Shown: positions 30,202 through 50,066 of the stretch, in pieces | How the letters are laid out: each line of letters opens with the position of its first letter | Numbering within the stretch: position 1 is the first letter of the stretch | Assembly (NCBI GenBank): GCA_023140195.1 | Contig: JAGLME010000015.1 | Span: forward strand, 248,001-312,000 | Origin: Thermoplasmata archaeon | GTDB taxonomy: Archaea; Thermoplasmatota; Thermoplasmata; RBG-16-68-12; SOIM01 | Direction of reading: 5' to 3' | Length of the DNA: 64,000 bases | Made by a program: the position numbers and the translations under genes | Notes under the pieces: model-generated | The model's input: the letters and a program-made list of their open reading frames with translations, nothing else | Database searches by the model: none | Told to the model about the DNA's origin: nothing

Positions 30202-31092
30202 ATGGGAAGGAAGTCCAAGATCAAGTCGCCTGAAGAGTACTTCGTCAGGGAACCTTTCGCCTCGGTGTTGCGTGTTCTTCACTCAGCAACCGATCCCAAC
30301 GGAGAATGGATAAGGTTGAAGCCCAAAGAGATTCGCCAACGAATGAAATCTGTTGAAATTTCTGCCAGCAGATTGTCGCAGGTCTTGGGCGAGTTGGTCT
30401 CATGGGGGCTTGTGGAGAAGAATTCTGAAGGGTATGCATTTTCAGAGGATTGGGTCTTTGATCTGAGGAAGGACTACATCCGGTTCTGGGTATCCAACTG
30501 CGAATGCGGCGAAATAGCTTGGCGAAATGAAGGCTGGGCGATCCTGGGAGTGGGTCTAGATGATTCTGTGGAGTCTGCAGAGATCAGGCGCGAAGTCATG
30601 GATTTGGCCACAAAGACTGGTTATCTTAGAGAGAAGATTCACAACTTGATGGTCAAGGAGCGATTGAAGGGCATTGCTGAGCATTTGAGGAAGGTGTTGA
30701 ATTCCAGTGAGCTTTCCGAAAAGAAGAAGGGTTACGTTCTTCACTATGTGAGAAAGGAGGTGAGGTACCCATTCATTGTGAGGGCCGCACACAAGTTGCC
30801 CGATGAGGAGAAGGGGGAGAAGGAAGATGTCAAGAGCAAGGCTGAAGCACGACTGGAAATCGATGTCAGGAAGTATGAGCCTGAGTGGGGATCGATAATG
30901 GTCCCGAAGTTGAAGAGCGAGAAGTTGTCACGAGTAATTTTGGACATTGCGAAGGAGTATGACAAGGGAAGAGAGTCTGAATTCGACCGTGAGTGGCTTG
31001 ATTGGTTGTTCTTTGAAGAGTTTTCACAAAGTGATTTTCAATTCGAATGCGGTCCATTGCTTGCATTTGGGGATTTCACTAAGATACCTTGA
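30202..31092 (+). CDS. Winged-helix domain protein, unknown function
   Basis: KEIRQRMKSVEISASRLSQVLGELVSWGLVEKNSEGYAFSEDW. Confidence 0.5.
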   Translation: MGRKSKIKSPEEYFVREPFASVLRVLHSATDPNGEWIRLKPKEIRQRMKSVEISASRLSQVLGELVSWGLVEKNSEGYAFSEDWVFDLRKDYIRFWVSNCECGEIAWRNEGWAILGVGLDDSVESAEIRREVMDLATKTGYLREKIHNLMVKERLKGIAEHLRKVLNSSELSEKKKGYVLHYVRKEVRYPFIVRAAHKLPDEEKGEKEDVKSKAEARLEIDVRKYEPEWGSIMVPKLKSEKLSRVILDIAKEYDKGRESEFDREWLDWLFFEEFSQSDFQFECGPLLAFGDFTKIP

Positions 31093-31251
31093 CCTGAGCA
31101 TTCGTGAAACCGCATGATTTGTCAGGAATGCCACAGTACAACGGCTTGCCTGCAGGTTGTGTGAGGAATCTAGTTCTCTTCAGCGCGGCAACATCTTTGT
31201 CAAGAGAAACACTTTCTTATATCGAGGAAAGAGTATCTCGCAAGGAGGAGA

Positions 31252-32081
31252 TTGCTGATGCATTGGGAGATTACTAGGACCCGAGGAAGGCGTGAAATAG
31301 GATCCAAATTTGAGATTGAGTTGAGAGGAAGGAGGGGGACCGGAGACAGACTCTCTTACAGAGTCTTGGGTGTTACCGGGGATTTCTACCTTCAGGGGGG
31401 TGTTTCACGTCGAGATTTATACCAATCTCAAAGACTCTTGACAGTGGAATAATCAAAGTCAATGTCACACTAAGTTTGAAGCCCACGGATATAGAACTGA
31501 TTGAAACAAAGAGGGCTGGTAATGACCTTGAACTCTCAGCAACAATGAACACACTTTTTGTGCGTTCAAACACGGTTCATAGCGAAATCAGATTCGAGGA
31601 CATCGGTTGGGACCAAATAGGAGCTCAACAGAGTAGGCTCTCGCAACGCGAATGGCTGAAGTGCCTGAAGGAAATGGGTTATGGAGACTACTTTGTGATT
31701 GAAATCCCGGTTCCCGAGATTCCAGAGAAGCCCGAGGCTCAAGAAGTGGCAAAAAGGCTGGAAAGAGCGCGGGAAATGCTCTGGAAGCATGAGAACAAGG
31801 AAGTGGTCGCCGAACTCCGACTGGCGCTGGAAGATTTGAGAAAACTCATTCACGTACCAAAGAAGAAATTGAAAGCCAGCATTGTCTCAAAGATAGACGC
31901 GAATTCTCCTGGACAGGAGGAATATCCGAAGAAAAGCGAGAGAATTGACAAAATGGAGAAACAGCTATGGGTCTTCCTTCATATCGCACATCACACAGGA
32001 TACGAAGTCACTCGAGAGGATGCAGAGCTCGCCATTATGGCTACTGTGCCTTTAGTCCGATATTTCTTGAGATGCTTGTGA
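31252..32081 (+). pseudogene. Unknown-function gene apparently split by a frameshift at a G6 run
   Basis: ORF 31252..31452 and the reading frame of 31476..32081 overlap as open frames across GGGGGG at 31395-31400; fused product is plausible. Confidence 0.45.
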
Positions 32082-32267
32082 AAAGGGCAATCGCCTCATA
32101 CTGCCTCTCAAAGACAATTCGACATTACGTTGGAGTAGAGTTCGAAAACCATTGCCTGGACCTCGTCAATTCAACGCAAAGATCTAAGAAGGGACACGTC
32201 ACATTTCTGTGTAGTGCTGAAGATAACCTTGTGCTATCTCAGGACGCACCGAAGACAGAATGCTAAC

Positions 32268-33767
32268 TCAGACAGCATCTTCTGCGTCTGCCCCGTCGCC
32301 AATGATTGAAGAACCAAACAGTCGAGAAAGATTTCTCGGGTAGTTCTCGAGGGCATTCAACAAAGCCTCAGGAAAAGGAAAGTCCCCGTGTTTATTCTTC
32401 CAGACAATGATGCGCTCTCCCTCCCTATCTGGTAAGCTGTGCTCGATATAGACCCTATGTTCTTTGGACATTGCTCTCTCTGTAACACTCTCGAAGATGT
32501 ATGGCGGGGCAATCAGGATAAGTGCAGATAGTACGGGATACGTGGCAAGAACCGCTCCCACGTCATCAGCGGGATCTTCAAAGAACTGTATAGATTCCTC
32601 GGCTGGCAAGAACCTGTCATAGATGACCAACAAGCCAGGCTCCTTCTTTTGGAGCTGATTGCTTTTTCCTTTGGTCTGAATCTTCCGGATGATTTGTTCC
32701 TTCTTGTGCAACGATGATCGGCTCCACGTTCTGAACTTGCCGCGCGAATGCTCGGGTATCTCGTGGGCCAAATCTCTCGGAGCAACGTAAAGTGTCACCA
32801 ATCCCGGGTAGTTCCGCTTGACCATCTTGTTCTTCCTCAGCGCTTCGTCAACGGCTCCTTCCACAACATGTTCCAGCTCTCTAACGTGGTTAGGGGTTCG
32901 GAGATCGCAAATCACGCCTCCTCCTGTAACCTTGTTGTAGAACAACTTCGAATGTACGTATCCGAATGCATCAGAAGCCCGTTTGGCCTCATCTGGAAGG
33001 TTCATGGATGTAATCTCAAGTCCCGCGAGGTGCCCATCAAACTCCGCCATTAGATCAGGAGTTTGAGTCTCTGGGGAAGCCTCTATGAATTCAACTCGAA
33101 TTCCACCCAGATGCAGTTTCAATGCGAAGTCCAGTTCAGCAAGAGCACCATTGTACTCAGCGGCAATGGCCAGCTTCTTGATAACTCCCTCCGATCCCTT
33201 TGTGGTGCTGAGTTTCTGCAGTTTCTGGGCGAAGTGCATCAACCACAGGTAGTTGGGCTCAGAAGCTTGCACGAGCTTTGACCGGAGTGGATGGTCCAAG
33301 GTCTGTGTTTCATCCCAGTCGTCCCTCAGGAGACTCTCCAGATATAGGACAGCTTTGAGCGCATCCTCGCCTGAATCGTATCCACTGCTTGCGCTCTCAT
33401 GAAAAGTGAGGGTCATGTCCCAGAAGTTGATGGAAGCCACAGACTTCTTATCATGATGGAGGGCTTGAAGTTTTCCCGTGGTCTCAGGAATGCAATTTTT
33501 GGTACTCTTCCCTGGGAGAAATCGCATTATTCTCATCGGAGGATGACATTCGTTGCCTTGTGTATTAACAACACAAATCTTCACTCTTGAAGAATACTCT
33601 AGTCGAGGATGGGATTTTGCGAATCGTTGAGGATGATATTTCTCAGCAGGTTCAGGACTTGCCAAAGCGAAGGCATAACTCAGGCTGAATGTGATTGGTA
33701 GATATTCGATCAAAAAGGGTGAGCAGAGTTGTTGTAGTTGTGGAGGTGAGTTGGTTGAGATAGGCAA
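32268..33767 (-). CDS. Putative PD-(D/E)xK-like nuclease/defence-associated protein
   Basis: ALAELDFALKLHLGGIRVEF...TPDLMAEFDGHLAGLEITSM; N-terminal start uncertain (possible start near 33533). Confidence 0.5.
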   Translation of the reverse strand: MPISTNSPPQLQQLCSPFLIEYLPITFSLSYAFALASPEPAEKYHPQRFAKSHPRLEYSSRVKICVVNTQGNECHPPMRIMRFLPGKSTKNCIPETTGKLQALHHDKKSVASINFWDMTLTFHESASSGYDSGEDALKAVLYLESLLRDDWDETQTLDHPLRSKLVQASEPNYLWLMHFAQKLQKLSTTKGSEGVIKKLAIAAEYNGALAELDFALKLHLGGIRVEFIEASPETQTPDLMAEFDGHLAGLEITSMNLPDEAKRASDAFGYVHSKLFYNKVTGGGVICDLRTPNHVRELEHVVEGAVDEALRKNKMVKRNYPGLVTLYVAPRDLAHEIPEHSRGKFRTWSRSSLHKKEQIIRKIQTKGKSNQLQKKEPGLLVIYDRFLPAEESIQFFEDPADDVGAVLATYPVLSALILIAPPYIFESVTERAMSKEHRVYIEHSLPDREGERIIVWKNKHGDFPFPEALLNALENYPRNLSRLFGSSIIGDGADAEDAV

Positions 33768-33891
33768 TTAGGCGGGGCATTTTGAAATGTCAAGATGAGC
33801 TATAATTTGAGTGTGGAACAAGGCCAGCGAAAGCTCTCTGAATCGATCCTGTACACTTGTGAGCGTGCATAATAGTGCTTTCTACAACTTG

Positions 33892-34944
33892 TTAGATCCT
33901 ATATTCCTCGGCCATTCCAAGACATTTCTCTGCTTCCTTGTTCCTATTCAATCTCTGGAGACATACCCCTTTGCTATAACATGCATTTGCATCTTTGGGA
34001 TCTAACTCCAAGGCTTTATCGAAGTATCCAAGAGCTTCATCATATCGTTCTAGGTTGTAAAGAGCAAGACCTTTGTTATAACATGCATTTGCATCTTTGG
34101 GATCTAACTCCAAGGCTTTATCGAAGTATCCAAGAGCTTCATCGTAATCAGCATCAAAGTGGCTCATATTCCCCAGGGTAACATAAAGCTCAGCATCCGG
34201 GGTCTCGCCATACTTTTCAGAATACACCTTCGCTGCATCTTCCATCGATTTCTTGAATCTTCTGTCTTGTGCTGTAACCACTATCTTCTTCTCTGGGTCG
34301 ATACCTTCTCCAAATTTGCTCTTTGCAAGTTCAATACCTTCTTTTTCCTTTTGTACGTACTCTATGGCAGCTTCTCTATCGTTTACTTCCATTCTGTCTT
34401 TCAAATCCTCAAACTTCGCCAAAAGCTTTGATTCCAACTCATCAAATCTCTCCTGCCACTTCGCATCTAAACTGGCAACTTTCTTTCCCACTGCCCTTAC
34501 CTCATCCCCTATATCCGCAAACCTCTTCGAGAGAAAATCACTTAGATCTTCATAGTTCTCGTCAATACCCCCCATCATCAACTCAAGCGTTTCGGTAATC
34601 TCATCATGATAACTTCCCATATCCTCGCTCATAACCTCCAATCTGCTGACCAAGAATTCAAAACGGTCTTCTTCAGAATCTCTCAACTCTACTAAGAAAT
34701 CTTCAATAGCTTCAACTTCAATTTCAGTATCATCTGAATACTTTTCTTCAATGAACTTGGAAATTGGCCCACCTATAATTGGGATCTTTCTAACTTCATT
34801 TGCAACTGCTTCCACTATTACTTTCTTACCTTTTGTCTTAATTGCTCCTAGTGTTTTGTTCTTGATATTAGTTAGGGCTGTCCAAATGTGAGATCTTATT
34901 CCCTCCCTACAACGTATATCCATCGAGGGTTGAAGCATACTCAA
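33892..34944 (-). CDS. Coiled-coil/TPR protein
   Basis: Two TPRs YDEALGYFDKALELDPKDANACYNKGLALYNLER and a third partial. Confidence 0.75.
   Translation of the reverse strand: MSMLQPSMDIRCREGIRSHIWTALTNIKNKTLGAIKTKGKKVIVEAVANEVRKIPIIGGPISKFIEEKYSDDTEIEVEAIEDFLVELRDSEEDRFEFLVSRLEVMSEDMGSYHDEITETLELMMGGIDENYEDLSDFLSKRFADIGDEVRAVGKKVASLDAKWQERFDELESKLLAKFEDLKDRMEVNDREAAIEYVQKEKEGIELAKSKFGEGIDPEKKIVVTAQDRRFKKSMEDAAKVYSEKYGETPDAELYVTLGNMSHFDADYDEALGYFDKALELDPKDANACYNKGLALYNLERYDEALGYFDKALELDPKDANACYSKGVCLQRLNRNKEAEKCLGMAEEYRI
33975..34143 (-). repeat. 67-bp exact duplication, 102-bp period (one 34-aa TPR)
   Basis: 33975-34041 identical to 34077-34143. Confidence 0.85.
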
Positions 34945-35218
34945 AGTTAATAATCCTTTTCGTCAAATTGACATCTCATGGGGAGTGTGGTTTGAGAAAG
35001 CTGGGGAAGGCCCATTTATCTCTTTCTTCAAAATGCCTGTCACAATGCCAGAACTCATGCATTTGACAGTTCTCTCTTTTCCCATCGAGCCCAATGCAAT
35101 CCCTCTTAGTCTCATCGCTATTGGCGCTGTAAGGGCATTCTATCATTAACTTTGGCTCTCTAGTGAACAAGAGTCTGCCATGTCTTCCCAGAGTTCTTTT
35201 TTTGTAATAGAGACATAC

Positions 35219-36523
35219 CTAGTCGTAGTAGCTTACATTCTCTTTCAAGGCTTGGAGAATTATGTCACGATTGGAATGACCCATGATTCTCTCTTCTTCG
35301 AGGCTCTTGAGGGCCTCCTCAATTTCAGTCTTTCCCATGTATCCCTGATTTAGAACATCTTTCAGGAAGAGATTTACGAAGAATTTCTGGTTAATGTCCT
35401 TTTGCACACTCTGCGCCAACTCGATCAGTCCTTCAGGAGATAGCCAACTAACCACGATATCTTTGGGCATTCTGCGGTTTTCCAGGAGTCCCACCCTTGT
35501 CTTCGTACAGAATTCTGTGGCCTTCTTCTGACTCGAAGCACGCGCCAAGATTAGGAGACCTGACATCGACAAATCCAGGTCTCCAGCTTTGAGATTCTTC
35601 TGCGTCAGGGCATAGTCCTTCACTTTTCGTCGCTCCTTGATATTCAGCACTCCGCTCTTCGCATCAACAATGAAGTATCTGAGAGATGCAGGTAGAAATA
35701 CCAGAAAGTCCGGAAGATTTCCTCGTTCCCGAATTGTGTACTGGAAGAACAGATCTCCGCATAGTTGCTTGATGAGTTTCTCGTACACGTTCCCCAGTTC
35801 CAAATCGCTCTTACCCCTTCTCTCGATTTCTTCGATTATCTCTAGCGTTGCCTGGATAATCTCTTCCAAGGGTGCTTCCTCTGCAGGCCTAACTTTCTCC
35901 AGAGAAATCGTGCCCGCCATCTCTTGTTGACGCATGATACACCTGTTGGTTCTTGCCAAGCCCTCAAGATACAGGAGCGTCTTATGTCTGAATTGAGGGT
36001 CTGAGAAATCCTCGAACCGACAGAAGTACACTTCTGAGTAGTAGTTCTCGACGGTCTTGACATCATCAGACTTCTCTCCACCCAGCACAAGGCAAGCATC
36101 CCAATGGGCAATACGGGAAGCAGTCCCGAATACAGAGTTGAGGTCCTTTCTATAGAACTCTCCCACAAAGGGTTCGATTCCAATTCGAAGACCCTGCTTT
36201 GTGAACGTCACTCCATCCGCATCAAGTAGATAACCCTGCCCTTTCAGCTCTCTTCTGATCTCTTCCCGAAGGATGTCTTTCCAGTTGGGAGCCAGGGACC
36301 CACATTCAGTTTTGCTCCAGTCGAAATGGCGCTTCTTGTCACAGTCTGCGCCGTAAATCCGATTGCAGATGTCGCAAAACGCCTCGGATGTTTGAACAAG
36401 AATCTCAGATCCAATTTCACACCCTCGAATGAGTTGTTCCATTGATGGACGGCTACCTTCGTGCTCAAGTCTACCTAGTATCTTGAGATAGGCATCTAGT
36501 CTCTCAATCGATGACGTAATCAC
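35219..36523 (-). CDS. Putative PD-(D/E)xK nuclease with N-terminal Cys cluster
   Basis: VYEKLIKQLCGDLFFQYTIRERGNLPDFLVFLPASLRYFIVDAKSG (E...PD...DAK); CDICNRIYGADCDKKRHFDWSKTEC. Confidence 0.65.
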   Translation of the reverse strand: MITSSIERLDAYLKILGRLEHEGSRPSMEQLIRGCEIGSEILVQTSEAFCDICNRIYGADCDKKRHFDWSKTECGSLAPNWKDILREEIRRELKGQGYLLDADGVTFTKQGLRIGIEPFVGEFYRKDLNSVFGTASRIAHWDACLVLGGEKSDDVKTVENYYSEVYFCRFEDFSDPQFRHKTLLYLEGLARTNRCIMRQQEMAGTISLEKVRPAEEAPLEEIIQATLEIIEEIERRGKSDLELGNVYEKLIKQLCGDLFFQYTIRERGNLPDFLVFLPASLRYFIVDAKSGVLNIKERRKVKDYALTQKNLKAGDLDLSMSGLLILARASSQKKATEFCTKTRVGLLENRRMPKDIVVSWLSPEGLIELAQSVQKDINQKFFVNLFLKDVLNQGYMGKTEIEEALKSLEEERIMGHSNRDIILQALKENVSYYD

Positions 36524-37493
36524 TCTCTCCCTGAACGTACCTGATATCGAACAACTTCAACATTTTCTGCAGCGCGACTTTTCCAATAACCTCCTGCAGT
36601 TTTTCCAGAACACTCTCTCCAGAGATGACAATCTTCTGTATCTTTCTGTCGTCTTTCCCTGCCAACTCGATCTGTCTCACTGGTTTGGCACCAGAGAGAC
36701 CTTGCTCGATTGCTTTGAGAACCTCCGAACTTTCCGGGGAGTGCTTTACCACATCCAGAGAAGACAGTTTGAGAACGTCCTTCAGAATTCCTTCAAGGTC
36801 GTGAAATATGCGGTGGTTCAGTGACGATTCGGAGACGGTGAGGCACCCATCTTTGAGATCTATCCATACTGTCAAGTAGTCTGGGACCCGAAGAATGTCC
36901 TTTTCGTGTTTCCAGAGAGACATGCGTTGTTCTCGAGGGAAATCAAATGTGATGATGAAATAGTCATTTCCTTGGAAGTTCGACTCACTGCAATACACCT
37001 CTGGCTCACCTTCAGGCACTTTCTTGATCTTGAATTCGGTTAGGATCTTGCTGTCGAATACTTCCAAGAACTTAGATTTCAACAACTTCTGAATATCGAC
37101 ACTCCTCTTCCTGATTTCTGAGAGTTCTGCAGGGTCCATTCTCTCCTCGAGGATTCTAATACGACTTGTTTTGGGCCTTTTGGAGAACGAGTTCAGTAGT
37201 TTGAGTTTCAGAAAGATGTCCGCGAAACGCTCACATGTTACAAGCTCCGCAAGTGCTCTATAGACATCCCTTCTTTCTGGAAAGCCAAAAACAGATCTTG
37301 ATTTGGTTACATCGATGCCTTCCCTCGCGAGGAAGTCTATCAGGATCTGATGTCTGCGTGGTGAGCCACCAAAATCAGTTATCTTGTTCAGGAAAGACTT
37401 GGGAAATTTCTTCAAGCCTCCGGTCTTCTTAATCTTCTTGCAGATTTCGATTAGTTTTGCCTTAGCTTTCTCCTCAGTAACCTTGTCGTTCAT
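36504..37493 (-). CDS. Unknown protein, operon partner of the nuclease (overlaps it by 20 bp)
   Basis: Full-length ORF with start 37493, stop inside the start region of the next gene. Confidence 0.6.
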   Translation of the reverse strand: MNDKVTEEKAKAKLIEICKKIKKTGGLKKFPKSFLNKITDFGGSPRRHQILIDFLAREGIDVTKSRSVFGFPERRDVYRALAELVTCERFADIFLKLKLLNSFSKRPKTSRIRILEERMDPAELSEIRKRSVDIQKLLKSKFLEVFDSKILTEFKIKKVPEGEPEVYCSESNFQGNDYFIITFDFPREQRMSLWKHEKDILRVPDYLTVWIDLKDGCLTVSESSLNHRIFHDLEGILKDVLKLSSLDVVKHSPESSEVLKAIEQGLSGAKPVRQIELAGKDDRKIQKIVISGESVLEKLQEVIGKVALQKMLKLFDIRYVQGESDYVID

Positions 37494-37673
37494 GTCGAAC
37501 CCCTCCGGATTTGCTTTGAAATGTTCCCTGACTCTTTAATCTTTGCCCTCCTTGACAATTCAATTGGAGGGCACTCATCCAATCCTTCTCAGATCCAGGG
37601 AATAGTCCTTGCCTCCATACTAGCCTACGCCTCGAACATGGAACCGCAAGCGGAACATTCAGTGGCATCAACC

Positions 37674-38756
37674 TCAACCTCTCTTCATCTCCGTTCCTTC
37701 CAACTTGATACGTCGACCTAGGAATTTCCACGCGAACTCCTTATGTGAGACATTAGGCGCCAGGCGCTCATACAAGCGATAACTGATTCTCAAAGTTGTG
37801 TCACCACTTTTCTTGTCTGTAACGGGCTCAGTCTCCTCGAAGACAACATCAAAACAGGGTGGCTCCTCACCAATTCCTAATCGCGAATCACCGTCTTTGT
37901 GCAGGACCGTCGACAGACGTACAGCAATCGCATCCCACCATGGGATAGGATCGCTAGACATTCCCTTAGTTCGTGGCGTTCCTGTCAGAAAGAGAACAGC
38001 ATTCAAAAGGGCGAAACGCAAGGGTGATAGCAGTTCCTGTGCCACACTCATCATTGCCTGCACATTTGCAGATCCGTGTACGAAATCATTCCTCAGATTC
38101 TTGGCTGCACTGAAGAGTTCCTCACCATTCTCGATGTGACTTTCCAAGAAAGTCTTGATAGGCGTGAGTGTTCGTCTCTGAGTGTTCAGTTTTGTTGCCA
38201 GTGGTCTGTTCAGAGCTTCCAGACCAATCCAGAAATCGAGGAACCCATCAAGTGAATCTGTGGCCCGCAGTCCTTTGCGATAGTGTATCAAAGCTCTAGC
38301 AATGGACTCTCTGTCTTCACGTGACCCTAGATTCTCGAAATGATTGACAAAATCAATCATTTTCGGTGGAAGAATAGAGCCTCTCGAGAGAGGTGGGAGT
38401 GGTGGATAGATGAACTGGAGGTATTCGTGGTCTGTATGTTCCGGATCAATGTCGACAGCAACGAGTGGCTGTGCGGTTGGGAGACTTACTGAAGTTAGCA
38501 ACGACATGTGTGTGGCGAGTGTATCTATCATTGTCCGAGAAGCGGATATGGCATCTTCAATGCTGTCGGCATTCAATTCAGTATCAAACTGAATTCCACT
38601 AACATAGCGATTGCCCACTTTGTCTCGGTCCCAAATGTTTCTCATTCTCAATCTAGTGATATTATCGTGTTCGCCTATATCGAGATCTGTAGGTCCATGC
38701 AGTATCACACCAGGTTTGAGCTCGTATCTAACGGAATATCGTAACATTTTTCTCAT
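37674..38756 (-). CDS. ApeA/HEPN-like protein
   Basis: RATDSLDGFLDFWIGLEALN...LFSAAKNLRNDFVHGSANV with RxxxxH motif (RNDFVH). Confidence 0.6.
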   Translation of the reverse strand: MRKMLRYSVRYELKPGVILHGPTDLDIGEHDNITRLRMRNIWDRDKVGNRYVSGIQFDTELNADSIEDAISASRTMIDTLATHMSLLTSVSLPTAQPLVAVDIDPEHTDHEYLQFIYPPLPPLSRGSILPPKMIDFVNHFENLGSREDRESIARALIHYRKGLRATDSLDGFLDFWIGLEALNRPLATKLNTQRRTLTPIKTFLESHIENGEELFSAAKNLRNDFVHGSANVQAMMSVAQELLSPLRFALLNAVLFLTGTPRTKGMSSDPIPWWDAIAVRLSTVLHKDGDSRLGIGEEPPCFDVVFEETEPVTDKKSGDTTLRISYRLYERLAPNVSHKEFAWKFLGRRIKLEGTEMKRG

Positions 38757-39049
38757 CTCTTCACTGGAATGATGGAATTGCAGAATAAAGTTTTGACAAC
38801 GAACTGATACCCCGTGCTGATACCGACTTGGCAGATGTCTATTTTGGAGATTGGGAAACGGAAAGCACCCGATTCTAGAATGTCTCTGCCTTCTTTCTTT
38901 CTGAATAAGATGTTGAACCTGTATGTTGTTATGGCTAGTAGTATTCGGAAGCCGGCTTGCTTTGGATGTGGCACCAAAACTGAAAAATACTTGACCTTGT
39001 GTGGGCTACACCTGAATATAGAAAGCTGCGTAAGACATGGAGGGCTGAT

Positions 39050-39547
39050 ATGAAGTATCTCGCGTATGGCTCGAATATGTGCACGGGGCGACTTCGAGAT
39101 CGCGTTCCGTCATGCACGGAGCCTTTCCCAGCTCGACTGAAAGGACACGAGCTGAGGTTCCACAAGAGAAGCGTTGATGGATCAGGCAAGGCCGACGCCT
39201 ACTCCACAGATGATCCGAATGACCAAGTCTGGGGCGTTGTGTTCGACATTGACAACTCTGAGAAACCAGATCTGGATAAGGCTGAGGGTCTGAACGAGGG
39301 ATATGACGAAACAGAGGTCGAGGTGGTTGATTACCAGAATATAGGTCACAAGGCAACAATGTACTTCGCCGAAATTGACTACATAGACCCTTTGCTGAAG
39401 CCGTACTCTTGGTACAAGCGCTTCGTCGTCGAAGGTGCTCGACAGCATGGACTTCCAGAAGCATATGTGAGTGAACTGGAATGTGTCGAGTCCCAAGAGG
39501 ATCTAGATGAGGATCGTAATGACGAAAACAGGACCATCCCATGTTGA
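39050..39547 (+). CDS. Gamma-glutamylcyclotransferase-fold protein
   Basis: MKYLAYGSNMCTGRLRDRVPS...WGVVFDID...LDKAEG. Confidence 0.8.
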   Translation: MKYLAYGSNMCTGRLRDRVPSCTEPFPARLKGHELRFHKRSVDGSGKADAYSTDDPNDQVWGVVFDIDNSEKPDLDKAEGLNEGYDETEVEVVDYQNIGHKATMYFAEIDYIDPLLKPYSWYKRFVVEGARQHGLPEAYVSELECVESQEDLDEDRNDENRTIPC

Positions 39548-39629: not shown

Positions 39630-40451
39630 ATGGATGTTGAAAAACTCTTCAAATCAAGCTGGCACTACGAGGGTGTCCACAAACTGCCTCCCAAGGGAGG
39701 GACTATCAAGACAGCTCGATTCGAGAAACCGAAACTCCAGGAGTTCGGAGGAATAGTACCTGGAGTAGGAGAACCGTACAGGCTGACCGCGATAACCAAG
39801 CACTCTGAAAGAGACGACATGATTCATTGCGGTCTATCTTCGAACCTCTACTTCAAGCTCATGAGAGGCATTCTGAATGGTGGGGTCCCTGACCGCAAAC
39901 ATCTCAAAGGCTTTCGATATCAACTTCTGCTGGAACAGCAGTGCATCGTTGCACTGGCCTCGGTCTTCGAGACATTTGCAAAAAGCATCATCAAAGACGT
40001 CAAGAGATTCAGGCATGTGCCGCACAACTTCGACGAGATAGAGAAATTCTTGCTGAAGAAAGGCATCAAGATACGAGACCTTGGAGATCTGAAGAAAAAG
40101 AACAATTATGAGAGAACAAGAAAGATCGTTGATTATCTCTTCCTGGTTCGCAATCTAATAGTACACAACGGAGGCATTGTTGACGATCCCTTCTGGAGGA
40201 AGTATCGTGGACGGATCAAGAAGAAGACCGTTGGCAAGCTGATAAGAATAGAATACTCTGACCTATCAGCAATGAGGAGCTGGGTATCCTACTTGGTGCA
40301 GGAGATATGCAAGGAGGTTCCAGACTACCACGATGTTTGGCTTGATTTTGTTCAGAGCGTGGGTATCATCATCCCTGGAGAGATTAGGGCTAGGCCCGTG
40401 TTCATCGATGGATCAGTGGGACCGGGATTTGGGTTGGAAGAGGGGAAATGA
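39630..40451 (+). CDS. HEPN-motif protein of unknown function
   Basis: VDYLFLVRNLIVHNGGIVDD with RxxxxH motif (RNLIVH). Confidence 0.55.
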   Translation: MDVEKLFKSSWHYEGVHKLPPKGGTIKTARFEKPKLQEFGGIVPGVGEPYRLTAITKHSERDDMIHCGLSSNLYFKLMRGILNGGVPDRKHLKGFRYQLLLEQQCIVALASVFETFAKSIIKDVKRFRHVPHNFDEIEKFLLKKGIKIRDLGDLKKKNNYERTRKIVDYLFLVRNLIVHNGGIVDDPFWRKYRGRIKKKTVGKLIRIEYSDLSAMRSWVSYLVQEICKEVPDYHDVWLDFVQSVGIIIPGEIRARPVFIDGSVGPGFGLEEGK

Positions 40452-40563: not shown

Positions 40564-41976
40564 TCAACGGCCAAGGATCTCACGGGACAGTTGCTGGCGA
40601 CTCATCAGATCACCGAGGTACTGCAAAACTTCACCGATTCCGCATCCGTCTTCAGCCAGCTCAAGAAGTTCCAACGAACTCTCCTTGTCAATCAAGAGGA
40701 TTCCATCGCTCTTCAGACGCACAAGGTCAGCCGGGTTTATCAGATCCCGTGATAGAGTCGTTGCCAGTACTCCAACAACTCTCGTCCCTGGTGCAACGGA
40801 TCCAATATGTCGAAGTCGAGCGACGAATTTGGTGGCTTTATGCCGAAGATCCGGTTCGGCGATTGTACATTCGATTACAAACGCGACGGTGGGATCTAAT
40901 GCCCAAGCTAGAATGTCAGGGTTTGCCTTGTCTTCTGCTCCGACATGAATGCAGGTGAATCCAAGGAATGACATGAGCTCGACAATGGCTTGCTCAAACC
41001 CTTTGCTAGGTTTCTTGGCTCTTCCACTCAATGCCCTTCTAAAGTCCTCAAGATTTGGATCCACAGATGAGCCCACACTCATCCTAGGGTTCCGTCCGCT
41101 CACTCGATTTCGATATAGATCCAACCGGTCCACAGAGTCTCCTCTGTAGGAGAGTAGGAGCTGGACATGATTCGATAGCTTCGTAACAGGGATCTCACTT
41201 TTGAGAAACACTTGCCTTTCCTTGCCTCTTGACGCAATTTGGAGAGATTGTCGGTCTCGCCGTAGGACCATACCCCCCTCCTTTTCAATTATCCCCACAG
41301 ACGCCTTGCTCAATTTGCAGCCTTCGCGCATCATAGCCTTGACTAAAACATTTTCAGACTCAAGAACTGAGCCCTGCTCGAATCGAAGCCAAATAGGTGC
41401 AATAATCTCAAGTTGACTGTGACACCAAGCATTCTTGTAGTCTTCGCTACCTGTATACGTCCTCACTAGATCATACATCCCTCCGAATGGTTTGTCAAGG
41501 GATGCGAGTCTTGACTCTAGTGATTCAAAACCTTCGGTTCCAATGCTCGCCATGACTGTCGACTCCCCTCCAGACAGAATGAAGCAGCGTGCATCAATGT
41601 TCATCAACCGGAGGCTATCCTGCCTCTTATAGGCCCGGAAGGTAGGTGAATAAGGATTCCCAAATCCAGAATGGTCTATTCTCTGGTAACTAATATCTGC
41701 TTTCTCCCATTCAAATTTCCCCGTCTTGAAGACATCAAGGATCCTTTCTATGTCGTCAATGGGCAGAAGGGCTCCCTCTATCAGCAAATCAGGAAGATTG
41801 GGAGGCTTTGCAGAGAATCTGAACCGTTTTGGTGTCTGTGTGCTCATTATAGCTCGTGTGGACAGGTTCACCCAGTGGGTTTCCCATTTGAAGGCGACCA
41901 AGTAAAACTCGATTGCTTTGTAGTCTTTCCTCAGCTGTTGTGTTGTGTCCAAGAATCGTCGAATGGGGTCTTTCAT
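40564..41976 (-). CDS. Putative Mrr-like restriction-endonuclease-fold protein
   Basis: GFEQAIVELMSFLGFTCIHVGAEDKANPDILAWALDPTVAFVIECTIAEPD. Confidence 0.6.
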   Translation of the reverse strand: MKDPIRRFLDTTQQLRKDYKAIEFYLVAFKWETHWVNLSTRAIMSTQTPKRFRFSAKPPNLPDLLIEGALLPIDDIERILDVFKTGKFEWEKADISYQRIDHSGFGNPYSPTFRAYKRQDSLRLMNIDARCFILSGGESTVMASIGTEGFESLESRLASLDKPFGGMYDLVRTYTGSEDYKNAWCHSQLEIIAPIWLRFEQGSVLESENVLVKAMMREGCKLSKASVGIIEKEGGMVLRRDRQSLQIASRGKERQVFLKSEIPVTKLSNHVQLLLSYRGDSVDRLDLYRNRVSGRNPRMSVGSSVDPNLEDFRRALSGRAKKPSKGFEQAIVELMSFLGFTCIHVGAEDKANPDILAWALDPTVAFVIECTIAEPDLRHKATKFVARLRHIGSVAPGTRVVGVLATTLSRDLINPADLVRLKSDGILLIDKESSLELLELAEDGCGIGEVLQYLGDLMSRQQLSREILGR

Positions 41977-42526: not shown

Positions 42527-43894
42527 ATGGCGATAATCAGATTTCCAGATCCTTACTTCAAGCTTCAAACCCGGAGTCTATATCTGGATGTCCCGAACAG
42601 CATAGTAGAGAACTTCTTGCATGAAGTTTCAAACATCACACAGAACAAACGACTCAGCACGTCCAAGATGTATGACAGGGTTGTTGCTCTTAGAGATCAA
42701 TTCAACGATGAACTTGGAGAGGAATATGGAAAATGGTTTCGTTTCGTAGTGAAGAAAGGTGGTTTTCAGAAGAAACCGTTTGCAATCCAAGTCAGGATTA
42801 ACTGGAAAGCTTTTGTGACTTTTCTGGACCAATATGCCACTAGAAGCGATCTCTCTCTTGAAGAGAAATATGAGTATATCTCCGAGTGCCGACATTTTAT
42901 TGGGTATATGACATCTGCTCCAAGAGATGAACATATTGCTAGGAATACAAAGGCCATTGCTGCTGATGAAATCTCTGCAGTGAAAAAGCACATTCGAGAA
43001 TTTCTAGCGTCTCTCAAGAGTATTAGGAGCAAGTTACGTTCAAGATTCCTTAGGAAGGGATGGCTCCCAAAGATAACGGTGTTCACCTCCGAGCTCGAAT
43101 CCATTATCCAGGGAATAGGATTGAGTTTCGACAGAGGGCTCATTCCAACGTGTTATAGGGAAATGAGGACTATTCTTGAGAACCTATCATGGGTAGTATT
43201 CGATGACCTGCTATGTTACACAAGCAGCGCAATCCGCTCAAATGAGACATTCATTCCTCCGTATCGAGTCCTTTCAAGAAGATGGTTTGACTGGGCAAAG
43301 AATCCGGGGTTCATGGTTAGGGGTATGGGCGAGTTGGGCAAATCTCTCAATAGGACCATTGGTCATTTCGATATTCTTTTTGAGAGCACTGAGTACGATT
43401 GGGGTAAGAAGAAGATCAAAGACGCTTTTTACAGGAATCTGACATATCCTTTGCTCATGAGCCTCGTGGGCATCAAAGCAGATGTGCCCACGGAACTGAT
43501 TGAATGGGTGCCAACATACGAAAGGAGATGGCTAGAAAGTGTACATCAGATGGACCTCGCGGAACTACTTAGCGACCTTAAGGGGAATAGGCTATCAGAG
43601 TCTGAAAGAATGCTAGCGAGACGAATGTCCAGGGCTATGACGAAGTCCCTCGAACCTCGCTTCACCATGCCATATCTCTCAAATGAAGTCGTTCTTCAAG
43701 TGACTAGCAAAATGCTTGGATTGAATCTTTATGATTTCTATGACAAATATAGTTACTTCGTGCATTCCTATAGCATGTCATGGCAGATTGCCCCCTTCTC
43801 ATCGATACTCGAACTCAAAGTCTTTGAGCAAGAACTCTCACGTTTCCTTCAGATTATTCAAAGCACACTACAAGAAGCATCACAAAGACTATGA
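42527..43894 (+). CDS. Hypothetical protein, alpha-helical
   Basis: 455-aa ORF; contains REMRTILENLSWVVFDDLL and YDKYSYFVHSYS, weakly like DUF5677/HEPN-type helices. Confidence 0.5.
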   Translation: MAIIRFPDPYFKLQTRSLYLDVPNSIVENFLHEVSNITQNKRLSTSKMYDRVVALRDQFNDELGEEYGKWFRFVVKKGGFQKKPFAIQVRINWKAFVTFLDQYATRSDLSLEEKYEYISECRHFIGYMTSAPRDEHIARNTKAIAADEISAVKKHIREFLASLKSIRSKLRSRFLRKGWLPKITVFTSELESIIQGIGLSFDRGLIPTCYREMRTILENLSWVVFDDLLCYTSSAIRSNETFIPPYRVLSRRWFDWAKNPGFMVRGMGELGKSLNRTIGHFDILFESTEYDWGKKKIKDAFYRNLTYPLLMSLVGIKADVPTELIEWVPTYERRWLESVHQMDLAELLSDLKGNRLSESERMLARRMSRAMTKSLEPRFTMPYLSNEVVLQVTSKMLGLNLYDFYDKYSYFVHSYSMSWQIAPFSSILELKVFEQELSRFLQIIQSTLQEASQRL

Positions 43895-44182
43895 CCTTGT
43901 TTCATTGTTACCAACGTGAATCCACTTGGTCGATCTGTATCATGGGAATTCCCAGATCGATTGAGAGGATAGCAACCATACCCGAGGAGAGACTCGTCGT
44001 ATGATTCACTAGAGAAGTCTCCCCATCACACCAGACGATTCTATCCCACACCCTCTCAAATCCAGTCTTCGGCATACCTGAGTCCACCCTCAAACGTCTC
44101 TTCTTCCTTAGCCGTAGAACCCAAAGACACAAGCAATTCTCCTTAGAACAGTTGTTCATTTCTCTTTTTTCTATCTTCTTGA

Positions 44183-44620
44183 TTATCCATTCAAGTTCTC
44201 TGCAGATGGAAACAATCTAGACGCCAGACCATCGATTGATTCTTCACCAAGCAAATCCCCTCTTGTGATTCTGCAATACGTCTTAGGATCGATGTTGGGC
44301 TTCGGTTTCTTCTCAAGGACGCCCAGTCTTTTGTCTTCGTCAAGAATTCGGTATTTCAAACTCATTCCTTGGCTCACATAATCGATCGTGACGAGTACAA
44401 CTGTTCCATTCTTTCTTCGCAAGAGGGACTTATGAACGATCCAATTGGGAACACTGCCCCCTCTTCTGACACTTTTCAACTGCACATATCTGCTGATATC
44501 GTCCACCTTCAGAACAAGATCGTAGCCAAAGGAATCCGTGTGACCTCTCAGGATTTCCAGTTTCTTCCTTTTGGAGGCGAGATGTTGAATCAAATCTGAC
44601 AAGAATTTGAATTCGACCAT
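44183..44620 (-). CDS. Small restriction-endonuclease-like protein
   Basis: HTDSFGYDLVLKVDDISRYVQLKSVRRGG (D...QLK core). Confidence 0.55.
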   Translation of the reverse strand: MVEFKFLSDLIQHLASKRKKLEILRGHTDSFGYDLVLKVDDISRYVQLKSVRRGGSVPNWIVHKSLLRRKNGTVVLVTIDYVSQGMSLKYRILDEDKRLGVLEKKPKPNIDPKTYCRITRGDLLGEESIDGLASRLFPSAENLNG

Positions 44621-44795
44621 TTGTTCTCGATATTTCGAGTCCTTCTCTGTGAATGTCTCTAATGACCTCGTGTTTTCACAACCTTACGTCTTCTTTGCGT
44701 ATCTCATCCAGTAGATTGTGCAGGTATGAAGTTCTTTTGGGAAACGCTTTTGATGAGCTTCTCTATGTGGTATAGGAGGAAAGGGGTGGATAGAA

Positions 44796-45344
44796 GTGAC
44801 CAGACTTAAGACGACTGTCGAGAGGTGTATACACGAACTTATCAGAGACTACAAGGACAATGAACTCTCTTACCTGACTGAGAGCGACGTAGTGGCAAGT
44901 CTTTTGAGCCTGCTGAGAATGAGATTGGATTCTGACTCTGTTCATTGCGAGTTGCGTCCCTATGACAGCAAGAAGAGGTACATTTCTGGAAAACCCCACA
45001 AATGGAAGAAGGAAGCTAGGGGTTGTTTGGTTGACATCGTGATATTGAAGAAGCAAGGTCTCAAGAGGGTCATTAGAGAGAGACAGAGGAGGTATTGGCG
45101 ATATCTATCATTCCCTGTCGCATCATTCAGGGCATCGGTGGAAGTGAAAATCCGTACTTGGAGGAACAAAAGGAATATTCGTGCTGACATTGACAAACTC
45201 AATCTGATTCTTAGGGCCAACCCCCGGTGCCTTGTCTATCTTGTTGTTCTGGACAGGTATGCTCCGGAGGCAGATCTGATGAAGGTTCGTGATTACGCAC
45301 AGAAATATAAGGTGGGATTCTTTTCATACCCACCAAGCAGATAG
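44796..45344 (+). CDS. Putative PD-(D/E)xK-like protein, first gene of a two-gene operon
   Basis: TESDVVASLLSLLRMRL...VDIVIL...ASVEVKIRTW...CLVYLVVLDRY. Confidence 0.5.
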   Translation: MTRLKTTVERCIHELIRDYKDNELSYLTESDVVASLLSLLRMRLDSDSVHCELRPYDSKKRYISGKPHKWKKEARGCLVDIVILKKQGLKRVIRERQRRYWRYLSFPVASFRASVEVKIRTWRNKRNIRADIDKLNLILRANPRCLVYLVVLDRYAPEADLMKVRDYAQKYKVGFFSYPPSR

Positions 45345-45353
45345 AGGGTTTAT

Positions 45354-46031
45354 ATGACGAGTTACACTGTGTGGAAGTTCGTGAAATTCCGCTCGGGTAG
45401 TAACACAATACATGCACATGTGGACGCTGTTCATGCAGCCCCTCCAAGACACGACAAATACGCTGGTCAGATTGCAGACGCCATAGCTAAGATGGCAGGA
45501 TGCAGTGTAATCGTGGCCACTGTGTCGAGAGATATTGCAGATCTAAATAGACCTCCTAACGAAAGCAACCAAGAAGCCATCAAGGAGTACAGACGGGCGA
45601 TTAGGCTCATCTTGGAGCACCTTGGCAATCTTGATGTCAATGGGAAGGCTGCAAGACCCTATCTGCATCTAGCAATTCATGGTATGGCAGACACAGGGGA
45701 TGGCGATATTGAGATTGGAACTCGGTTCGGAGAGACTTGCTCAGAGAATATCAAGGATTGGCTTGTCAACAGAATAGATTCTTGGGGGGAGGAGGTACAG
45801 GTGGACAGGAGGTTCCCCGGAAATCCCTCCAAGTCGTTTCATAGATGCGGTGACAGCAGGAGCGACCTGGAGTATTTGGGCTACGGAGATAACTTCAACA
45901 CATTTCAAGTGGAAATTGGCAGAACGCTGAGAGAGAAATACCGAAGAAAGCTAATCAACAGATTCGCAGAGATTGTCGTGGATTTCAATGATACTTTTGA
46001 TTCCGCTACTACTCGCCAGGACGCGGATTAG
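45354..46031 (+). CDS. N-formylglutamate-amidohydrolase-like hydrolase
   Basis: SRDIADLNRPP, HLAIHGMAD, IEIGTRFGETC, FNTFQVEIGRTLRE; 9 bp after the upstream gene. Confidence 0.6.
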   Translation: MTSYTVWKFVKFRSGSNTIHAHVDAVHAAPPRHDKYAGQIADAIAKMAGCSVIVATVSRDIADLNRPPNESNQEAIKEYRRAIRLILEHLGNLDVNGKAARPYLHLAIHGMADTGDGDIEIGTRFGETCSENIKDWLVNRIDSWGEEVQVDRRFPGNPSKSFHRCGDSRSDLEYLGYGDNFNTFQVEIGRTLREKYRRKLINRFAEIVVDFNDTFDSATTRQDAD

Positions 46032-46334
46032 AGCCTGTCTTGAGCTCTTTGACCAAATGCCTAATGTTCGGGAATCCGAAATAGCCATCTACACTTCGAA
46101 TGTTCAGGATACTGCGAGAACCCCCCAGATAGAAGTCAACGTCTTCCTCTTCTGTCTATGAGTTGGAGACTGACACCAAGCTGTATGTTAGCAGAAGTTC
46201 GCCTATTGATGTGGAGAAAAGTGTAGTTTTGTTTTTCTTGGGATTCACTGGGTACGAAGCATTTAACCAAATGCAGTGAACTAAAGGTCTGTGTTGAACG
46301 CTATACAAGTTAGTCTCAGTTCCCAGCGTTTTCG

Positions 46335-49300
46335 CTATTCCAGCGTTCTTCTTTGAACATGAAATCGAGCGCTCGCCCTAATTTTGGATATCACATCGGA
46401 AGGACCCGCTATCTTGTGTTTCTCCAAGATAAGGAGGTCCTCACGGGTGCCTATGGCCTGCACGCACGTTGCTGCGATCTCAAGACCTTCAATTGTAGGG
46501 TGGGAGGCGAGCCAGCGATCCACAAGGTCGAGAGCTCGGTCCCTCGAATCGTGTCGTTTATCGAACTCTTCCAACCAGTACCCAACTCGCCATTTACCAT
46601 GCCTGTCGGCCAAAAACTCATTCAAGTCTTGAAGCAATTCATCGTCAGACGGATGGTAATCCCTCCTGAGCTTTTCGCTAAGTAGATTCGAAAGATGTTG
46701 TTGGCTCCATTCAGGGACCCCAAGTCGCTGGCATACTTCCGCCAATTCCCTGAGGTCATGCTCGCCTAAACGATCGAGATATGGTACTAGGTTTTCCAGG
46801 TGACCTACTGTCAAATACTTCTGTCTTTCGCTGTCCAAGAAACCGAAGTGAAAGTCGATGTGTTTGAATACGGGGACGTCGTTTGGACATTGAATTATGC
46901 TTGAAGAAGCGAGTTCGAGACACTTCGGAGTGCCAACATATAAGGCCGTCTGTATGAATAAGGGGCTGTAGCCAAGATGGTTCCAGTACTTGGTCAGTAG
47001 TATTTCGGCGTCCCTCGCGGGAATCATCATAAGCAATCTCGAAATCATATAGTGGATATCCAACCTGTCGCTCATGAAATCTTTCGAAATGTTATCCTTG
47101 AACGATTCCAAATGACGTTCTGCTACATTCATGATTTCATTGCACCATACGTAGTGAGCAACACTGAACCAATGAGTTTCGGTCGATAACAACGGAAGTA
47201 TATCTCGTACCACGCTTTGGTCACCGAGTTGGGCCCGCTTCCATAACGCTCTGTGGAAAAGAGGCGGAGTCTGTGGAATAACTCTCAGAATGTCGATTTC
47301 GGTCCATTCTACATTTGTGAGCCACAGGCGAAAGGCCTCTGTTTTCACGAATTCATCATTCTGTGGATTTTCCCACAAAGCCCTTAGCCTTGCCCAAGAT
47401 GCTTGTGACAGTCTGCGACCTCCCCTGCGGGAGTTATTCCAGTTGTCGACGATCATCGCCGTCCAAGGTGAAAATCTCTCTGTACCAGCTATCTCTCGCT
47501 CAATTCTGGCGGCACTTCGCACAATAAACTCGATTGCATTAGGTGTGTCAATTTTGTCGCACATAAACGTAATAGGCCAGCGCAACGATTCGTGCACATC
47601 GCACTGTTTGACAAGATAATCGATAACATCATCACGGATTCCACGTGCCAGTGCAAAACGAAGGTACTTCGCCATCTGTACTTTTGGCGATATACCGCGG
47701 GTGTTCTCTTCATCAGGCAAGCTAGCCCAACACGCCATCAGTGGGTCCAAGATGTCGCTAGGATTGGCTCCGCTACATTGGGTAGCAGCCCAAATCGCTT
47801 CTGGAAGAGTCCCTATTCTGTCCGTTGAGAGTCTCCAACATGCTGCTATCTCGTCCTGTAGATCAGTCAGGCCCAAGAAACCTGCCAATGCCAGAGACCC
47901 CTTTCGATTTCTGTCTGTTACTGTAGAGGATATCAATAGCATTTTCAGTTCCCTTAGGAGTTGTTCTCTGTGTTTCATCTTCGCATGGTCTAATATCCGA
48001 TCGCGCAGACCATCATTAATCCCAGGTGCGAAGTCCCCCCGAGTGCCGAAATATGAAGCACCGCTTTCTGCGCACCCATTGCGCAACCGGGCCAGAAGAA
48101 CCAGTGGATATGCACGTAACCTCTCAGTTACTTCAAGAACTGCTGGGGAGTCTGTTTCTAGAAGACTCCAACAAACAGCATTGATTACCGAATCTGGAGT
48201 GGCGCCCTTTGCCATTCCGCTTTCCATCCACTGCTTGACTTCGCCGATAATAGCCTTATGGTTGCTAGATGTGGGTATCCCAAAACACCGGATGGCTTCT
48301 ACTAGTGACAGGGGATTTCTATTCCGCATTTCTGCGAGAAACTCTCGATGTTGGGGAGAAATCAGAAGGGCACGGCCAATTATTCCCGCGTAGTATGGTT
48401 CTTCCAATACTTCAGAGTCTGACATGGAGTCTGTTAGTATCGTCACCATACTTCCAACAAGCAAAGTCTCCAGGATACGGTCATGACGGAAAACCAATTC
48501 TTCTTGGTCTCTCAATCGACAAAGCATGGAACGTCGAATGAGTTCTCTCATCGCTTTCAGATTTGAGTTCTCTCCCAACCATCTTTTGATTTCCTCCCAA
48601 GAAGGTTGGTGTTCTCGCTTTCGTAGCATATGAAGGCATGTAGTAGAGAGCGCCTTGCGATAATCGGACGACAAATAGGAGGCCCCAGGAGCGGAAGCAG
48701 CATCCTTAAGGCTAGATGTCACGAAGTTCTCGACAACGTCCTCCGCTAAAACATTGAGGTCGCTTTGCTTGGCGTTTGTAAGGAGTGAACTGAGCAAACC
48801 TATCATAACAGGGTCCCTTCCCATTTTGGTGGCCAAGTCACTGGCTTCTGCACTTGAGATTTCCACATCAGCATGGGAAGTCGCTACACGAACAGCCAGT
48901 GTTGCCTCTGCCAAAGTCATGGGGCCAATGATGATGGTATGTATCCAGGGTAATCTGGTGAGATTGTCCTCCATTTGCCCCCAAATGTGAGGCCATACGG
49001 GACACACAACAATGTGTTGTGAGACTGAGGAAGGCGAATCAGGAATGGTCGACGGTTGGGGCCTAGACCAAGAGAGGATCCTATGTAGTAGTCTTGTGGG
49101 CGCTTCCGCCCTGTTCACGTCATCCAAAACAATAAGAAGTTGTGAACCTTCTCGAACGAGCTGCAGGGCAACTCTCCCCGCTTCAGGTGATAAATGCGGA
49201 TGGAGAGCCTGCAAAACCTTGCTAATCACCTCCTCCAACGACAAACACTCATTGACCAAACTGGCAGGTGCCCACAAACCGTATCCACCGGACTGCAAGT

Positions 49301-50066
49301 GATTCTGCAATGCTCGGTAGGCTGTAACACTCTTGCCAAAACCAGATTCACCAACGAGGAACTGAATCGTATACCTATTGCTGCATATCCCCCCTTGAAC
49401 TTCGTCCTCAATCTGGCGCTGGACCCAGCTATCAGGAACTGACAGGAGAAACTCCCTTTCGTAGTGAGTCAAGCTCTGCATGCAAAGGCTTTGTAACAGG
49501 GACTCTGATAGCATCTCGGCATCAATACCAAGGTATTGCTTCCTGAGCCAATGGCCCTCAGAAGTATTGTCCAAAAAATCTGATAAGCGGGACTGATCCC
49601 AAATATCGCACATGACGTCAAATTCTTCCTCCTTTTCGTGAACTGACTGCAAGAGAGTCATGTCGGGACGTTGGTTGGTAGCCAGAATAACAGTGAATTT
49701 TGCCTTGGGAAATTCCTTTCTGATTTCTTGGGCCAAACGGCCAGCCTTGATCAAGTCTCCATCCGTACTCTTCGATGCCGCCTTCGTTTCTGGAGCCGAT
49801 GTCCCGTCGTATAGCCATTTTCTCTTTAGCTCCCTTCTATCTGTCGATGTGGTCTGAAGAATCAGGAAGTGAGGAGGTCTACTTCCCGGGGCGCGGCAGA
49901 ATCCATCTACCGGTGACTTCACTGGTTCCCCAGCGGCATTTACTCCAGTCTGCAAAATGTGTGGGTAGTCTCGGTCCACCTTGTGCAACACTGAAACCAC
50001 CAGGAGCTCAAACTGGCCCCTATCTGTCATTGCTTCGAGAGCTTCAGCCGTATTCAAATTGACCAT
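46335..50066 (-). CDS. STAND-type P-loop NTPase with N-terminal nuclease-like region
   Basis: 1243 aa; Walker A GESGFGKSV, Walker B LLIVLDDVNR; N-term DRGQFELLVVSVL...PVDGFC...HFLILQTTSTDRRELKRKW. Confidence 0.7.
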   Translation of the reverse strand: MVNLNTAEALEAMTDRGQFELLVVSVLHKVDRDYPHILQTGVNAAGEPVKSPVDGFCRAPGSRPPHFLILQTTSTDRRELKRKWLYDGTSAPETKAASKSTDGDLIKAGRLAQEIRKEFPKAKFTVILATNQRPDMTLLQSVHEKEEEFDVMCDIWDQSRLSDFLDNTSEGHWLRKQYLGIDAEMLSESLLQSLCMQSLTHYEREFLLSVPDSWVQRQIEDEVQGGICSNRYTIQFLVGESGFGKSVTAYRALQNHLQSGGYGLWAPASLVNECLSLEEVISKVLQALHPHLSPEAGRVALQLVREGSQLLIVLDDVNRAEAPTRLLHRILSWSRPQPSTIPDSPSSVSQHIVVCPVWPHIWGQMEDNLTRLPWIHTIIIGPMTLAEATLAVRVATSHADVEISSAEASDLATKMGRDPVMIGLLSSLLTNAKQSDLNVLAEDVVENFVTSSLKDAASAPGASYLSSDYRKALSTTCLHMLRKREHQPSWEEIKRWLGENSNLKAMRELIRRSMLCRLRDQEELVFRHDRILETLLVGSMVTILTDSMSDSEVLEEPYYAGIIGRALLISPQHREFLAEMRNRNPLSLVEAIRCFGIPTSSNHKAIIGEVKQWMESGMAKGATPDSVINAVCWSLLETDSPAVLEVTERLRAYPLVLLARLRNGCAESGASYFGTRGDFAPGINDGLRDRILDHAKMKHREQLLRELKMLLISSTVTDRNRKGSLALAGFLGLTDLQDEIAACWRLSTDRIGTLPEAIWAATQCSGANPSDILDPLMACWASLPDEENTRGISPKVQMAKYLRFALARGIRDDVIDYLVKQCDVHESLRWPITFMCDKIDTPNAIEFIVRSAARIEREIAGTERFSPWTAMIVDNWNNSRRGGRRLSQASWARLRALWENPQNDEFVKTEAFRLWLTNVEWTEIDILRVIPQTPPLFHRALWKRAQLGDQSVVRDILPLLSTETHWFSVAHYVWCNEIMNVAERHLESFKDNISKDFMSDRLDIHYMISRLLMMIPARDAEILLTKYWNHLGYSPLFIQTALYVGTPKCLELASSSIIQCPNDVPVFKHIDFHFGFLDSERQKYLTVGHLENLVPYLDRLGEHDLRELAEVCQRLGVPEWSQQHLSNLLSEKLRRDYHPSDDELLQDLNEFLADRHGKWRVGYWLEEFDKRHDSRDRALDLVDRWLASHPTIEGLEIAATCVQAIGTREDLLILEKHKIAGPSDVISKIRASARFHVQRRTLE

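Follow-up and report, generated by a model that had tools for sequence, protein, structure and literature searches.

An archaeal tRNA-Pro-integrated element carries a defence-like gene block with Avs4-like STAND and ApeA-like HEPN proteins

To our knowledge, archaeal antiviral systems beyond CRISPR and restriction–modification (R-M) are poorly charted. Two described systems come closest to the genes reported here. Avs4 (AVAST type 4; 8dgf) is a single-gene system, activated by phage portal protein, whose 1534-residue chain joins an N-terminal restriction-endonuclease (REase)-like domain to a STAND NTPase and long C-terminal helical repeats; once terminase or portal is recognised, the nucleases of Avs1–4 cleave DNA of both phage and host (PMC12931631). 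ApeA, with unfused solved chains of 593–619 residues, has a HEPN core with an Rx4H motif and an upstream helix, preceded by a beta-rich N-terminal domain; it was listed with R-M operons and an intact Rx4-6H, the HEPN RNase motif (Anantharaman et al. 2013, PMC3710099). As to the carriers, archaeal integrated mobile elements are characterized by a tyrosine integrase, a tRNA site, direct repeats and an empty site, and bacterial phage satellites and genomic islands hold hotspots of variable defence cargo on integrative elements (PMC9122126). Here, we describe a 47-kb element of a Thermoplasmata archaeon whose right arm, judged from its sequence and that of its relatives, is probably (probability about 0.72) a stack of independent antiviral modules, the best defined of which are an Avs4-like STAND protein and an ApeA-like HEPN protein.

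The window, the whole 64,000-nucleotide stretch analyzed, falls in a 433-kb contig of an assembly of 2.98 Mb in 120 contigs, the gene content of which looks archaeal (a Dph6-type ATPase, for example). A tRNA-Pro(TGG) gene (3287–3361, + strand) is the integration target: its 3′ 20 bp, TTCAAATCCGGGCGGGCCCA (3342–3361), constitute attL and recur exactly as attR at 50410–50429 (+ strand), with about 6e-8 occurrences of a given 20-mer expected by chance in 64 kb. A tyrosine integrase gene (3413–4702, + strand; PF00589, E 1.6e-7) starts 51 bp downstream of the tRNA. The corresponding site in G004, a complete genome from the same family, is empty and reads epimerase–tRNA-Pro–Dph6. The integrase, the 20-bp repeat and the empty site together delimit the element as 3342–50429, put into tRNA-Pro by the tyrosine integrase, and bear out the first-pass annotation, which had placed the gene block on a mobile element next to attR. 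Just outside attR lie ABC-transporter genes (50466–52712) that are missing at the same site in G004, indicating that the locus varies outside the element too.

The integrase family is present in 20 of 61 genomes searched and, in related genomes with readable flanks, directly adjoins a tRNA for Pro, Val, Lys, Arg or Ala, a layout repeated in at least eight related loci. Relatives' contigs often stop within or shortly past the integrase (L036, L037, L023, L024 and L025, in G002, G001, G003, G001 and G000:C110, respectively), and short N-terminal integrase fragments recur. These breaks probably come from near-identical integrase copies, and such elements are therefore likely under-reported. The element resembles archaeal integrated mobile elements in integrase, tRNA site, direct repeats and empty site; it differs in its cargo, which comprises secreted repeat proteins and defence-like genes, and in that Pfam scans of its larger ORFs recognized no replication, transfer/conjugation or capsid genes.

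The left arm (5–28 kb) encodes secreted or surface proteins bearing CARDB, fn3, Big_5, Big_13 and CBM96 domains, which may represent surface-variation cargo; sibling elements carry large secreted repeat proteins similar to those at 5000–28000. It is followed by a Cys-rich backbone protein (28601–30109, − strand), homologues of which adjoin the integrase in several other elements, and by a winged-helix-like protein (30202–31092, + strand) that is probably also element backbone, not defence. A relative of the latter (36% identity) lies beside a small tyrosine-recombinase-like gene in another member of the order (G014:C39), which places the start of the island proper near 31.5 kb. The defence-like island previously drawn from 30202 to 50066 therefore holds from about 31.5 kb, its first gene resembling the backbone, and the right arm (31.5–50.1 kb) is a defence-like block of 19 kb and about 15 genes. 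Small tyrosine-recombinase-like proteins (about 230–285 aa) recur near the integrase or the winged-helix gene in sibling elements (L055 6690–7421, L063 4057–4914 and L076 1254–1955). A further element of the same integrase family, at tRNA-Val in G014 (L026, G014:C113), carries TmtA (1.1e-102), RNase III-like and uracil-DNA-glycosylase-like genes (both assigned by eye from sequence) and surface repeat proteins, supporting two kinds of cargo in the element family, namely surface proteins and defence genes. The TmtA-like Sacsin/NOV protein of L026 is 1513 aa long, and an 891-aa protein also lies beside the integrase.

The right arm is dark to standard annotation. Pfam matched only TPR repeats, AIG2_2, an N-formylglutamate amidohydrolase (FGase) domain and, weakly, AAA_16 in the STAND protein and HEPN; PADLOC returned only weak partial matches (PDC-S28, DzbB and TPR) and found no named system with all its genes in the island; NCBIfam matches to right-arm proteins were at chance level; and ten right-arm proteins had no match in PHROGs. 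The view that most of these gene combinations fall outside named systems is thus upheld, PADLOC naming none in the region, with the amendment that two genes do resemble known systems, Avs4 and ApeA. Pfam matched no methylase among the listed island ORFs; the cognate DNA methyltransferase that an R-M system would call for was thus not found. Rfam detected just two tRNAs in the window, promoter and terminator scans performed no better than on shuffles, and TRF found no tandem repeats in the arm. All listed right-arm ORFs are intact, and their codon usage departs from that of host genes by no more than about 2 s.d. (all |z| ≤ 2) and gives no mark of recent arrival.

The STAND protein (46335–50066, − strand; 1243 aa) is an Avs4-like nuclease–STAND–helical-repeat protein by its motifs, homologues and Foldseek matches. 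The first-pass call of a STAND NTPase is confirmed by residues invariant in 11 members: Walker A (S241/G242/G244/K245), Walker B (D316) and GxDP (D418/P419); RHD (527–529) is invariant as well. Full-length relatives with 23–51% identity occur in cyanobacteria, haloarchaea, Campylobacterota and Proteobacteria. tblastn recovered homologues on seven plasmid records from six genera (coverage ≥80%, 23–39% identity), comprising Pseudanabaena, Halalkalicoccus, Haloquadratum, Aliarcobacter (two), Sphingomonas and Acinetobacter. A scan of genome contigs with a three-sequence alignment added homologues in Nostoc, Scytonema and Anabaena (42–50%); the same scan with a single STAND sequence found nothing. 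Among 170 genomes of the host's class, the family occurs in the host alone, and its presence in distant taxa yet absence from the other 169 sampled genomes indicates horizontal spread. One Aliarcobacter plasmid homologue is flanked by Lit and a Shedu nuclease and the other by Shedu and TIR; the Sphingomonas homologue lies near AbiEii, that of Pseudanabaena near a YhaV toxin, methyltransferases and a helicase, and that of Acinetobacter near RelE/Phd inside a urea-metabolism cluster. No clear defence neighbours were seen for the Nostoc and Scytonema homologues, nor for that of Acinetobacter apart from its toxin–antitoxin pair, and both cyanobacterial chromosome copies that could be read stand as single insertions amid housekeeping genes.

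Structural comparison points in the same direction at low confidence. AlphaFold2 models built on four sequences (pLDDT 52.8 and 58.8) have an alpha/beta fold in the N-domain, a P-loop domain and a long tail of helices. In Foldseek searches of 350,542 PDB chains, Avs4 (8dgf) was the top match both for the N-domain alone (probability 0.82, E 0.074) and for residues 1–1199 (probability 1.00, E 1.5e-4). TM-scores of the models to Avs4 do not exceed 0.32, and importin-like helical repeats score nearly as well against the full-length model; with models this weak, the Avs4 match is one of ranking, not of good superposition. PADLOC Avs profiles matched none of eight family members, and no Avs chain appeared in a PDB profile search with the family. 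A mad8 match of one member (7e-4) was not shared by other members and was set aside. The protein shares the single-gene layout and three-part architecture of Avs4; it differs in its shorter chain and lack of an Avs profile match, and the family differs in spanning archaea and cyanobacteria and in a variable third catalytic position. On balance, we lean towards a protein that works like Avs4 without being filed as Avs4. By analogy with that system, its C-terminal helical repeats would bind a conserved viral protein, binding would lead to ATP-dependent oligomerization, and the N-terminal REase-like domain would then cut DNA, so that the infected cell is killed or arrested.

In the N-domain, E20, D54, T73, K83, D104 and K107 are invariant across the 11 members, whereas the position expected for the catalytic Glu of ExK is occupied by Q, A, E or H, a variability that makes nuclease activity uncertain. 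An REase fold that has lost its activity and serves in binding or signalling would account for this variable position; set against it is the 11/11 invariance of E20, D54, K83, D104 and K107, suggesting that the active site persists with one residue shifted, and we regard the inactivated fold as somewhat unlikely.

The ApeA-like HEPN protein (37674–38756, − strand; LRNDFVH, 360 aa) belongs to a divergent family in which R222 and H227 (LRNxxVH, Rx4H) are invariant in five members at 17–28% identity. Its best PDB profile matches are ApeA chains; Pfam and PADLOC gave no ApeA match. Like ApeA, it combines a HEPN core with Rx4H and an upstream helix (FWIGLEAL here) and has R-M associations; it is markedly shorter than the solved ApeA chains, and its profile E-value is just 0.019. 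A homologue in L058 neighbours a type IIG R-M gene (PDLC03604, 5.7e-263) and an Argonaute-associated REase (1.9e-25), and one in L057 lies beside a Schlafen-AlbA protein (SLFN_AlbA_2). The L055 homologue has a NucS-like nuclease nearby and lies 11 kb from an integrase of the same family as here; in L092, a weaker relative adjoins a methylase-like gene (by eye), and a further relative belongs to a second G014 element (L027). The host genome holds a second ApeA-like copy (L091 10899–13767, G000:C31) that adjoins a surface repeat protein and tRNA-Lys; no integrase was evident within the 20 kb read, and the locus is possibly a decayed element. The occurrences in L055, in L027 and near tRNA-Lys indicate that the HEPN gene travels repeatedly with this element family. 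A MauJ match (1.9e-4) of one family member was not shared by other members. The protein may act as an RNase that cuts RNA during infection. The second HEPN protein (39630–40451, + strand; VRNLIVHNGG) matches PF18735 and, in PADLOC, DzbB, both weakly, and shares RNxIVHN with a relative in L065; its homologue had no clear defence neighbours. With R/H conserved in the first family and RNxIVHN kept in the second, both HEPN assignments of the first-pass annotation stand.

Three further genes are probably restriction-linked modules. The protein at 40564–41976 (− strand) has a C-terminal REase-like domain (E328...VIECT...K) whose E...ECT...K pattern is kept in homologues and coincides with a weak PADLOC PDC-S28 match (E 2.7e-5); a 24% homologue in G036 lies about 2–3.5 kb from a McrB-like AAA gene and McrC (PF10117, 1.4e-53). 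A CagL match of its profile in PDB (E 0.018) was judged to be chance. The helical protein family at 42527–43894 (+ strand) is defined by invariant CYRExR and YSxFxHxYxxxWQ motifs; in G377, just 10 bp separate a homologue from a type IIG R-M gene next to a tRNA-Val, and haloarchaeal plasmid homologues had no evident defence gene nearby. An ArdA match in PDB (E 0.19) was likewise discarded as chance. The 145-aa nuclease-like protein at 44183–44620 (− strand; DSFGYDLVLKVDDISRYVQLKS) has homologues around a DxxxxK-like core on four bacterial records, one directly after hsdM–hsdS–helicase genes (type I R-M).

Between and beside these modules lie hydrolase-like and orphan genes. Two earlier assignments were recovered by Pfam: the gamma-glutamylcyclotransferase (GGCT)-like protein at 38999–39547 (+ strand; AIG2_2, E 1.7e-16) and the FGase-like hydrolase at 45354–46031 (+ strand; PF05013, E 5.9e-11), whose homologues had no clear defence neighbours. 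An orphan with a nuclease-like motif (44796–45344, + strand; motif only) ends 9 bp upstream of the FGase gene. At the left end of the block, a 201-aa orphan (31476–32081, + strand) has no match in Pfam, PADLOC, NCBIfam or PHROGs, and an orphan identified by its PD-(D/E)xK-like motif only (32268–33767, − strand; AELDFALKL...PDLMAEF...GLEIT) had no homologues in 246 phylum genomes or in plasmids. Next comes a coiled-coil/TPR protein (33892–34944, − strand; TPR Pfam matches), in which two adjacent TPR units (33968–34146) are 97% identical in DNA at 102-bp spacing, suggesting a very recent duplication. The orphan nuclease-like protein at 35219–36523 (− strand; GNLPDFLVF...FIVDAK) had no convincing homologue; a G430 match (28.9% over 83 aa), lying within a secreted protein that seems unrelated, was rejected. 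Its start overlaps by 20 bp the upstream gene for a 329-aa orphan (36504–37493, − strand), which has essentially no homologues in 170 class genomes. From this overlap, 36504 is likely the translationally coupled partner of 35219, and the two would form one overlapping, probably coupled pair. The proposed count of at least five PD-(D/E)xK-like proteins is thus sustained in part: 40564, 44183 and the STAND N-domain (conserved E20/D54/K83 and a low-confidence fold match) are backed, 32268, 35219 and 44796 are motif-based, and no candidate matches a Pfam nuclease family.

The defence reading of the arm derives from the neighbours of its homologues, most of which lie with known defence genes. Homologues of five different arm genes lie beside R-M, McrBC, Shedu, Lit or AbiE genes, and the sampled neighbourhoods, 1–9 loci per family, include type IIG R-M twice, an Argonaute-associated REase, McrBC, Schlafen-AlbA, type I R-M, Shedu, Lit, AbiEii, TIR and toxin–antitoxin genes. 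The housekeeping context that would have argued against defence was mostly not what homologues showed; clear defence neighbours were lacking for some STAND homologues and for those of the FGase gene, of 39630 and, in haloarchaea, of 42527. The HEPN family and TmtA recur in sibling elements that have the same integrase, in keeping with the defence reading. The concatenated-query homologue search had lower sensitivity, scoring just 2 of 8 own-genome candidates, and a lack of hits in it carries little weight.

The same genes might instead form a graveyard of mixed accessory genes, such as toxin–antitoxin remnants, orphan nucleases and metabolic strays, gathered by an integrative element and with no coordinated defence. 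The GGCT-like, FGase-like, TPR and left-arm secreted surface proteins are not defence markers and several genes lack homologues, which speaks for such a graveyard, but the intact ORFs with host-like codon usage, the recurrent defence neighbours just listed and the conservation of predicted catalytic and nucleotide-binding residues in the HEPN and STAND families make it quite improbable. Inter-element competition, in which the genes, like toxin–antitoxin or plasmid-exclusion modules, stabilize the element or exclude rival plasmids or viruses rather than protect the host, draws on the repeated carriage of the HEPN gene by the element family (L055, L027 and the own-genome copy) and on the toxin–antitoxin genes beside two plasmid STAND homologues. 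It overlaps with the antiviral reading, and sequence alone cannot separate the two; STAND sensors of such architecture are, however, known as phage sensors (PMC12931631), and competition as the main role appears unlikely.

What the sequences show directly is the element with its boundaries, the protein families, their conserved residues and the neighbours of their homologues; from these we infer the defence function, the Avs4-like mechanism and the RNase and DNase activities. The island belongs to a known general kind of defence island, with contents that are unusual: it shares with bacterial hotspots a variable defence cargo on an integrative element, and differs from them in its archaeal host, its different integrase family and a cargo nearly all outside named systems. 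Tentatively, at a little less than even odds, it may hold at least three undescribed defence systems, namely a cross-domain family of Avs4-like nuclease–STAND sensors whose catalytic motif is altered, a compact archaeal ApeA-like HEPN system that one tRNA-integrating element family carries repeatedly, and the coupled 35219/36504 pair of a nuclease and its partner, which has no known relatives. This 19-kb block, unnamed by standard tools, supplies discrete testable candidates, and its STAND family, extending from archaea to cyanobacteria and Proteobacteria, offers a direct route to asking whether archaea sense viral proteins in an NLR-like way and whether their viruses display comparable triggers.
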